Shown: piece by piece, positions 7,623-9,473 of the stretch
Layout: each line of letters begins with the position of its first letter
Position numbering within the stretch: the first letter of the stretch is position 1
Assembly: GCA_023247915.1 (NCBI GenBank)
Contig: JAHFFN010000006.1
Coordinates: 1-51,832, forward strand
DNA: 51,832 bases
Source of the DNA: Candidatus Omnitrophota bacterium
Lineage (GTDB): Bacteria; Omnitrophota; Gorgyraeia; 2-02-FULL-51-18
Reading direction: 5' to 3'
The notes under the pieces: model-generated
What the model saw: only the letters and a program-made list of their open reading frames with translations
What the model was told of the DNA's origin: nothing
Databases searched by the model: none
Position numbers and translations under genes: made by a program

Positions 7623-7786
7623 GGGCGACGGGATTTGCCGCCCTCCACTACGTAAGTCTTGTCGACTCCGTCGACAAGCTTACTTCGTTCCGGGTCGGGC
7701 AGCCGCTTCGTCGATGGATGTGACAGTCCACTGGACTGTCACTTATATCACGGGGCGACGAAGCTCCTGTTCAAATCCCGTCGCCC
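7623..7786. repeat. tRNA-linked palindromic element P2, copy A
   Basis: A 164-bp element bounded by perfect 15-bp inverted repeats (GGGCGACGGGATTTG and its complement) that match the acceptor/T-arm end of tRNA-His. Internal hairpins: 7658-7678 (8-bp stem, loop CTCCG), a long-range stem 7706-7713 with 7756-7763 (CTTCGTCG/CGACGAAG), and 7721-7741 (9-bp stem). It shares TCCGGGTCGG (7689-7698), CGATGGATG (7712-7720) and the CTCCG loop with copy B, while the stems differ in sequence. No protein is encoded. Confidence 0.85.
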
Positions 7787-7942
7787 ACTGGAGATTTTTT
7801 CGTTTTGGAAGGTCAGATGCAAGGCGCAAAAAGGTTTTCGCTGAGGCGCTATGGAAATAGCGCTGCAGGCGAAAACCTTTTTGCAACGCCGCAGATGACC
7901 TTCCAAAACGAAAAAATCTGGGGTGGGCGACGGGATTTGAAC
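7769..7942. repeat. 174-bp palindrome P5 running into tRNA-His
   Basis: Nested inverted repeat centred near 7855. The outermost arms (7769-7788 and 7923-7942) are a perfect 20-bp inverted copy of the last part of tRNA-His. The next arms (7792-7815 and 7896-7919) are perfect over 24 bp, then 7826-7841 with 7869-7884 over 16 bp. A small hairpin GCGCTAT-GGAA-ATAGCGC sits at the centre. The left tRNA copy is shared with element P2-A. If transcribed with tRNA-His, it would place a complement of the tRNA 3' half in the trailer. Confidence 0.87.
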
Positions 7943-7996
7943 CCGCGACCTCCTGAACCACAATCAGGCGCTCTAACCAGCTGAGCTACGCCCACC
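7919..7996 (-). tRNA. tRNA-His (anticodon GTG)
   Basis: Folds as a standard cloverleaf: extra G-1 opposite C73, acceptor GTGGGCG/CGCCCAC, D arm GCTC/GAGC, anticodon stem CCTGA/TCAGG with loop TTGTGGT, and T arm GCGGG-TTCAAAT-CCCGT. The CCA end is encoded (7919-7921). The G-1:C73 pair is the histidine identity mark. The last 20 nt of the gene body are repeated in inverted form at 7769-7788. Confidence 0.97.
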
Positions 7997-9223: not shown

Positions 9224-9376
9224 GTGATTCGGCGCCCTACGCCTTACAAGTCACGACGACTCCGTCGTCGAGTCTTGTGCGGCTCCGGGTCGGCCACTCG
9301 ACTTGGCGATGGATGGCGACTGCCTTTTTGGCAGTCGCCCTTTATTATTGGCGCCAAGTCTCACTTCGAATCACGC
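9224..9376. repeat. tRNA-linked palindromic element P2, copy B
   Basis: Same layout as copy A, beside tRNA-Arg. The end repeats are GTGATTCG (9224-9231) and CGAATCAC (9367-9374); the wider right end TTCGAATCACGC (9365-9376) is a perfect 12-bp inverted copy of the tRNA-Arg T-arm at 9408-9419. Hairpins: 9254-9270 (CGACGA-CTCCG-TCGTCG), the long-range pair GACTTGGCG 9300-9308 with CGCCAAGTC 9352-9360, and 9315-9339 (10-bp stem, loop TTTTT). CCGGGTCGG and CGATGGATG are shared with copy A. Confidence 0.85.
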
Positions 9377-9396
9377 TATTATTATAAACTAAAAAA

Positions 9397-9473
9397 TGGT
9401 GCCCCCGGCGTGATTCGAACACGCGACCCACGGTTTAGAAAACCGTTGCTCTATCCAACTGAGCTACGGGGAC
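9397..9473 (-). tRNA. tRNA-Arg (anticodon TCT)
   Basis: Cloverleaf: acceptor GTCCCCG/CGGGGGC (one G-T pair), D arm GCTC/GAGC, anticodon stem ACGGT/ACCGT with loop TTTCTAA, T arm GCGTG-TTCGAAT-CACGC, discriminator A, and encoded CCA at 9397-9399. Reads AGA/AGG codons. A T-run follows on its own strand. Element P2-B begins 20 bp beyond its 3' end. Confidence 0.97.

Follow-up and report, generated by a model that had tools for sequence, protein, structure and literature searches.

Do the ends of a short repeat that lies behind transfer RNA (tRNA) genes belong to the repeat itself, or to the tRNA gene next to it? This question is raised by two copies, A and B, of a structured and gene-less element in the 51,832-nucleotide contig JAHFFN010000006.1 of a Candidatus Omnitrophota bacterium (assembly GCA_023247915.1; the whole stretch is referred to as the window). 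The first-pass annotation had noted that each copy carries ends resembling its own neighbouring tRNA. As detailed below, comparison of many copies points to a family of small, mobile and non-autonomous DNA elements in Omnitrophota that probably insert at C56^R57 in the T-loop of tRNA and transfer-messenger RNA (tmRNA) genes, and whose ends are templated by the target.

Copy B is located at 9224–9376 of the window, on the minus strand, behind tRNA-Arg(TCT). Along this strand, the intact tRNA gene is followed by a trailer, an inverted T-arm copy, a structured core and a direct tRNA copy, with the following features (evidence in brackets):

9397–9473, minus strand: tRNA-Arg(TCT), the intact host gene (ARAGORN, Rfam RF00005, sequence)
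9397–9416, minus strand: bases 57–76 of tRNA-Arg, the copied part (sequence)
between 9417 and 9416, minus strand: T-loop cut point C56^R57 of tRNA-Arg (sequence)
9377–9396, minus strand: trailer of 20 nt between tRNA-Arg and the element (sequence)
9368–9376, minus strand: inverted copy of tRNA-Arg bases 57–65, forming the 5′ arm of stem P1 (sequence and family-wide pattern)
9231–9367, minus strand: core (GAAGTGAG...GGGCGCC), a three-way junction of P1, P2 and P5 (covariance model, covariation)
9300–9360, minus strand: P2 arm, with a stem of 9300–9308 and 9352–9360 and an inner perfect hairpin at 9315–9339 (folding, compensatory changes)
9231–9295, minus strand: P5 arm, in which GGCcGaCCC (9287–9295) pairs with GGGCGCC (9231–9237), two bases being bulged and the terminal hairpin variable
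9224–9230, minus strand: direct copy of tRNA-Arg bases 57–63, forming the 3′ arm of P1 (sequence)

The two ends of copy B are thus not equivalent, one being inverted and adjacent to the tRNA, and the other being direct and far from it. The tRNA-proximal end TTCGAATCACGC (9365–9376, plus strand) corresponds in reverse complement, at 12/12 positions, to GCGTGATTCGAA (9408–9419), which is T-loop and T-stem of tRNA-Arg(TCT), and matches tRNA-His at only 9/12 positions. On the minus strand, the inverted copy reads GCGTGATTC and is then followed by GAA, the P1 5′ arm and this adjacent GAA together making up the 12/12 match. At the far end, GGGCGCC is joined to GAATCAC, a direct copy of tRNA-Arg from base 57 of which the remainder has decayed, so that the distal end GTGATTCG (9224–9231) copies 8 nt of the same T-arm. 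The earlier claim that the ends match the T-arm of tRNA-Arg rather than tRNA-His over 12 bp therefore holds in full for the proximal end, while the distal match is limited to 8 nt.

Copy A (7623–7788), behind tRNA-His, displays the same layout with tRNA-His ends, as had been proposed. Its direct end matches the tRNA over 14 nt and its inverted end over 16 nt plus a longer palindrome:

7919–7995, minus strand: tRNA-His(GTG), the host gene of copy A, with bases 57–76 at 7919–7938 (ARAGORN)
7789–7918, minus strand: trailer of copy A, which includes a palindromic repeat of a second kind (TCAGATGCAAGGCGC...), the outer arms of which prolong the inverted tRNA copy (inverted repeat I1, 52 nt, 90%)
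7773–7788, minus strand: inverted copy of tRNA-His bases 57–72 (sequence)
7637–7772, minus strand: core of copy A (covariance model match 7630–7779, 141 bits)
7623–7636, minus strand: direct copy of tRNA-His bases 57–70 (sequence)

A DNA search with copy B gave ten matches, two of which were unrelated chance matches, and ARAGORN placed each of the element copies behind a tRNA. A covariance model built from seven copies (R1), which matches copy B at 9224–9374 with 151 bits (E 5.3e-43), and a broader model from 64 sequences (R2) then served to collect copies from other genomes. Their general layout is an intact tRNA, a trailer, a short inverted copy of T-arm bases 57–65, a core of 85–170 nt and a direct tRNA copy that runs from base 57, often to the 3′ end. 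Both tRNA-derived copies begin exactly at C56^R57 of the T-loop. The inverted copy spans bases 57–65 in most cases (median exact match of 9 counted from C56); some copies have extensions that are longer or bipartite. The direct copy reaches the end of the tRNA gene, after which identity falls; counted from C56, its exact match most often measures 21 nt where the gene encodes CCA and 18–19 nt where it does not. Because its length tracks the end of the tRNA gene in this way, a fixed-length target duplication was rejected. The mature, CCA-tailed tRNA was likewise rejected as source of the far copy, since CCA is absent in 64 of the 71 far copies whose gene lacks it.

End-matching could be scored for 147 copies. 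The direct copy agreed with its own tRNA at 18.1 of 20 positions, versus 10.6 of 20 for other isoacceptors. When all tRNAs within a genome were ranked, the own tRNA was better for the direct copy in 100 cases, tied in 4 and worse in 7 (99, 6 and 6 for the inverted copy), so that the check proposed in the first-pass annotation, a comparison of all copies with own and other tRNAs, turned out in favour of the local tRNA. Where tRNA and far copy differed within the first 12 positions, the inverted copy sided with the tRNA in 66 cases and with the far copy in 11.

The decisive result came from near-identical cores at different tRNAs. In a pairwise comparison, the nearest neighbour of a core lay in the same genome for 63 of 164 cores (shuffled mean 5.3, maximum 17), and behind a tRNA with the same anticodon for only 9 of 164 (shuffled mean 4.8, maximum 16), which is about chance and led us to reject tRNA-specific element lineages. 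In genome G257, for example, cores with a similarity of 0.90–0.98 are found behind Gly, Arg(ACG), Arg(TCG), Thr and Met tRNAs, while the Trp and Thr cores of G295 and the Leu and Glu cores of G010 each share a similarity of 0.96. For 29 such pairs from 9 genomes, we scored both ends at the positions that distinguish the two tRNAs. The inverted copy agreed with its own tRNA at 104 positions and with that of its partner at 2, and the direct copy at 377 versus 6, or 481 versus 8 for both ends together. These data bear out the earlier view of ends that go with the local tRNA and not with the element, and indicate that the core moves while its borders are re-made from each target. The first-pass annotation had left two origins for the borders, namely copying from the target or selection for pairing with the tRNA. 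Since cores that differ by only 2–10% already have fully matched ends, copying from the target accounts for the data better than slow selection for pairing does. Once made, the inverted copy may be maintained by selection or by template-switch correction.

Tandem arrays and one empty site bear further on this movement. The direct repeat extends through the trailer up to the inverted copy in 23 of the 147 scorable copies, mostly because a second, often decayed, element follows. In genus g31, a Tyr-Gly-Thr-Thr-tuf cluster is conserved. Two members (G197 and G130) carry an element behind Tyr, with a single base between the far copy and tRNA-Gly, and a third (G352) has a Tyr-Gly spacer of 8 nt from which the element is absent. 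The Tyr element of G130 belongs to another subtype, and its tRNA, inverted copy and far copy all have A57 instead of G57. This comparison supports insertion, with the downstream DNA resuming beyond the far copy. Some very similar copies (Gly in G257, Glu in G010) have a trailer that is native and has been duplicated. In genus g31, element-free tRNA genes were seen to be followed, right from their CCA end, by another small hairpin repeat (AATCCGCCGAAGGCGGATTTGATCCTGAGG...GCGAC..GGAG..CGAAGGACC; L305, L306).

R1 revealed 12 copies in the 1.65 Mb assembly to which the window belongs, and each of the 12 directly follows the 3′ end of a tRNA gene. The tRNAs concerned are His, Arg(TCT), Leu(TAA), Val(GAC), Phe, Lys(TTT), Lys(CTT), Leu(TAG), Asp, Trp, Ser(GCT) and Ser(CGA). 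With some 41 tRNA genes in this genome, most of its tRNAs are therefore without an element. The two tRNA-Ser elements (L021, L022) have a distinct core subtype (CGCACCGCTGCCACAAAGGCAG...GGCGCGTCAGGCGCGCGAG) that is also present in other genomes, so that several subtypes coexist within one genome. Further afield, R1 matched 24 of 59 relatives, and R2, under stricter filters that make this a lower bound, matched at least 94 of 384 sampled Omnitrophota genomes in a patchy distribution and gave no match in the other 290. Up to 15 copies were found per genome. Among 180 copies, 163 lay within 300 nt 3′ of a tRNA on the same strand, representing 41 anticodon types. Copies without an ARAGORN tRNA included two that follow tmRNA (L343, L129; Rfam RF00023) and two that follow a split tRNA, the split being due to a group I intron in L338 (contig C49 of G001; RF00028) and similar, judged by sequence, in L339 (contig C2 of G010); others lay at contig ends or gaps. 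Such an intron-split tRNA with the element at its T-loop, missed by ARAGORN, was thus seen in two genera.

A scan of named genomes for an exact pattern assigned the phylum to Omnitrophota, and almost all strong model matches fell on Omnitrophota contigs. The two strong exceptions were Candidatus Gracilibacteria contigs, with copies behind tRNA-Leu and tmRNA. Misbinning was rejected here, as long reading frames are open on these contigs only when TGA encodes glycine (code 25) and their G+C content (GC) is 24–32%; the recoded TGA argues for a real transfer between phyla. A further strong match of 64 bits (L155, 4896–5093) lies on a contig binned as Bdellovibrionaceae isolate nzgw169. As it equals an Omnitrophota copy (in G009) in score and GC, and also shares its isolate-series naming, this contig is probably a misbinned Omnitrophota contig.

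The core folds as a three-way junction of P1, made from both tRNA-derived arms, P2 with its inner hairpin, and P5 (GGCcGaCCC/GGGCGCC with two bulged bases), the terminal part of which ranges from a GAA triloop to long hairpins. In the 64 sequences, 95.4% of cells were paired, a percentage biased upward by an alignment that was fitted to the structure, and 39 of 45 pairs showed two-sided changes; none of 500 shuffles did equally well and no slide came near either. G-U pairs numbered 30 against 92 mismatches in 2012 core cells, and 39 against 0 mismatches in 650 cells of the T-stems of the same tRNAs. G-U pairs are thereby about four-fold rarer in the core (1.5%) than in tRNA stems (5–6%), and this scarcity despite strong covariation suggests that the core pairs as single-stranded DNA rather than RNA. 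Moreover, several copies (e.g. L018, L024, L058) have a long, perfect, terminator-like palindrome between tRNA and element, which would argue against routine co-transcription. Rfam, in gathering as well as permissive mode, matched only tRNAs in the window, matches to the element being weak and far below gathering.

To look for a mobilising enzyme, we counted tyrosine recombinases (PF00589), reverse transcriptases (RVT_1) and Y1 transposases. Element-rich genomes such as G001, G003, G009, G022 and G056 have about two PF00589 proteins each, presumably XerC and XerD, and the PF00589 counts, which do not separate IntI from Xer, revealed no dedicated tyrosine recombinase that tracks the element. 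RVT_1 gave no match in most element-rich genomes tested (G000, G001, G002, G003, G009, G022, G023, G056, G197, G257, G295 and others). Y1 transposases showed no association with the element either, as they are absent from the element-rich G257 (the genome with the clearest recent movement), G022, G103 and G059, and present in element-free genomes. On these counts, all three enzyme classes were rejected as mobilisers.

How might such an element move? The mobile part would be the core only (GAAGNGAG...GGGCGCC, ca. 85–170 nt), while at a new site the target would write the direct copy from base 57 and the short inverted copy of bases 57–65, the direct copy leaving the tRNA gene intact as attL/attR do. 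More specifically, the core would act as folded single-stranded DNA, both ends of which are joined to the right half of the target's T-arm at C56^R57. Repair or replication synthesis would copy the 3′ part of the target into the direct copy, and a template switch at the universal TTC/GAA could yield the inverted copy, which quasipalindrome correction could then hold matched to the tRNA. The enzyme would be a host protein or be supplied in trans. By contrast with these steps, comparison of sequences establishes the layout, the constant border at C56^R57, the tandem arrays, the passage of cores between tRNAs and the match of the ends to each new tRNA. Several points weigh against the proposed insertion of cores with target-templated ends: the searches for RVT_1, PF00589 and Y1 found no mobilising enzyme; no insertion was caught in the act among the copies compared; the comparison with an empty site draws mainly on a single tRNA locus of one genus; and the trailers disagree on the exact length of the insert, those of Tyr and Trp in g31 looking shared between tRNAs, those of Gly in G257 and Glu in G010 being native and duplicated. 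We tentatively propose, at slightly less than even chances, a new type of transposition in which a gene-less DNA hairpin recognises the T-arm that is universal to tRNA and tmRNA genes, re-templates both its direct and its inverted border on each target, has no dedicated recombinase in the host genome and spreads across phyla.

The explanation that survives best next to this one, unlikely as we consider it, is site-specific recombination akin to that of integron cassettes or phages. A circle of tRNA 3′ part, trailer, inverted copy and core would then recombine in the T-loop, with the core as an attC-like folded site. A direct repeat that starts in the T-loop with a restored tRNA, as known for islands in tRNA genes (PMC4383910), and the tandem arrays would both be expected of such a circle; the bulged bases and variable terminal structure of P5 resemble attC, the scarce G-U pairs suggest single-stranded DNA, and the inverted copy agrees better with the tRNA-side copy than with the far one (66 to 11), as it would in a cassette. 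However, a foreign cassette would leave a chimeric tRNA, yet near-identical cores have fully matched ends, and no IntI-like or dedicated tyrosine recombinase was linked to the element by PF00589, a family that does not separate IntI from Xer.

Somewhat less probable still is concerted evolution without transposition, in which gene conversion would homogenise the cores of old insertions within each genome while the ends stay local. That cores of one genome resemble each other most (63 of 164 nearest neighbours) fits this explanation, and the tandem arrays would testify to ongoing recombination. It sits poorly, however, with patchiness inside a single genus (an empty Tyr locus in G352, and another subtype at the same tRNA in G130), with the 290 of 384 genomes without a match and with the presence in Gracilibacteria, and gene conversion alone leaves the origin of the matched ends unexplained.

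Retro-type mobility appears improbable. Here, core RNA would be reverse transcribed and the 3′ end of the cDNA (..TTC) would prime on the T-loop and make the inverted copy, which would account both for the variable length of that copy and for a direct copy that stops at the 3′ end of the tRNA. However, RVT_1 was not matched in G000, G001, G257, G295 and other element-rich genomes, and the far copy has CCA in only 7 of 71 cases where the gene lacks it, so that mature tRNA is not the usual template. Finally, a cis-acting RNA that is co-transcribed with the tRNA and steers its folding or 3′ processing by pairing of inverted copy and T-arm, with selection keeping the ends matched, would agree with the invariable position on the same strand 3′ of the tRNA, with the strong covariation and with the complementarity of the inverted copy to bases 57–65 of its own tRNA, but is the least credible in view of the four-fold rarity of G-U pairs (1.5% vs 5–6%), the terminator-like palindromes by which several copies are separated from their tRNA, the many own-genome tRNAs without an element (12 copies, 41 tRNAs), the jumping of cores between tRNAs and the decay of copies in tandem.

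Mobile elements are normally defined by ends of their own. Here, a structured core without genes is bordered by ends that belong to the target, and this target is the one DNA motif that all tRNA and tmRNA genes have in common. To our knowledge, no mobile element makes its borders from the neighbouring tRNA, and no description of such an element was found in the open-licence literature searched, in line with the first-pass annotation. Up to 15 copies per genome, each behind an indispensable tRNA, imply an insertion chemistry that repairs its own damage; if true, the element would have a harmless route into essential RNA genes and would offer a direct test case for recombination of single-stranded DNA hairpins without a known enzyme.

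A T-loop attB is known for mycobacteriophage Ms6 (PMC1762012), and islands in tRNA and tmRNA genes have a direct-repeat layout and tyrosine integrases (Islander, PMC4383910). The element resembles these islands in its T-loop target, in the restored tRNA at one end and the displaced 3′ fragment at the other, and in its use of tmRNA. Unlike them, it has no integrase or cargo, a core of only 85–170 nt and an extra inverted copy, and, in contrast to their fixed attP, one core is found at dozens of tRNA types with the ends re-made each time. With integron attC sites it shares a folded hairpin of conserved structure with bulged bases and a variable terminal hairpin, as well as arrays, and with integron cassettes the inverted core pieces that are complementary to the front end of the unit itself. 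Unlike cassettes, however, the repeated unit has no gene, its target is any tRNA T-arm and no attC R-box consensus was noted; no integron integrase was found either, the PF00589 counts, from which IntI is not separable, fitting XerC/D only in several genomes.

Family 2 casposons have a 14–15 bp duplication next to tRNA-Pro and a T-loop-like motif (TCAAATC) in the leader, and the A. boonei casposon enzyme recognises this motif (PMC6614799). The element thus shares with them the choice of a tRNA gene's 3′ part as target and the duplication of that target, but casposons have their own Cas1 and terminal inverted repeats, whereas the element carries no gene and its ends are owned by the target, and the casposon target-site duplication of 14–15 bp compares with one of 17–21 nt that is set by the tRNA end. 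In keeping with this, neither a gene in the core nor an element-owned terminal inverted repeat was found (Cas1 in trans was not searched). Miniature inverted-repeat transposable elements (MITEs), RU-1/2/3 and repetitive extragenic palindromes (REP) with RAYT are likewise short, structured, non-autonomous and multi-copy, but where MITEs have constant ends, the terminal repeats of the element vary with the tRNA. Template-switch mutation at quasipalindromes extends the identity between two arms (PMC3820800), but such correction works on existing arms and moves no conserved core between loci. As neither tRNA islands, attC sites nor casposons have ends that are rewritten for each target, we do not file the element with any of these; it may work like a target-repairing integrative element.

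Two loci showed genes between element copies. At L240 (G257, C1:287600–290700), an insert of ca. 2 kb between two copies of one tRNA-Arg specificity has terminal inverted repeats of ca. 36 bp and, as named by eye, genes for an XRE regulator, a 119-aa protein, a zinc-ribbon-like protein and a RES-domain-like protein. At L129 (1428–4325, Gracilibacteria), two near-identical copies 2.8 kb apart flank genes named by eye as ATP-grasp-like and beta-lactamase-like hydrolase, and the second copy retains only CTCCACCA of the left tRNA/tmRNA end. Element-bounded gene cassettes of 2–3 kb are suggested by these loci, but were not adopted as one of the two has terminal inverted repeats of its own.

The palindromic repeat in the trailer of copy A belongs to a second repeat family with a core of ca. 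75 nt (TCAGATGCAAGGCGC...GCAGATGA; window 7790–7920, and L345, L347, L348 and L350). Its long, inverted and near-perfect arms of ca. 17–25 bp differ at every locus; the repeat often stands directly behind tRNA genes and is probably a terminator-like element.
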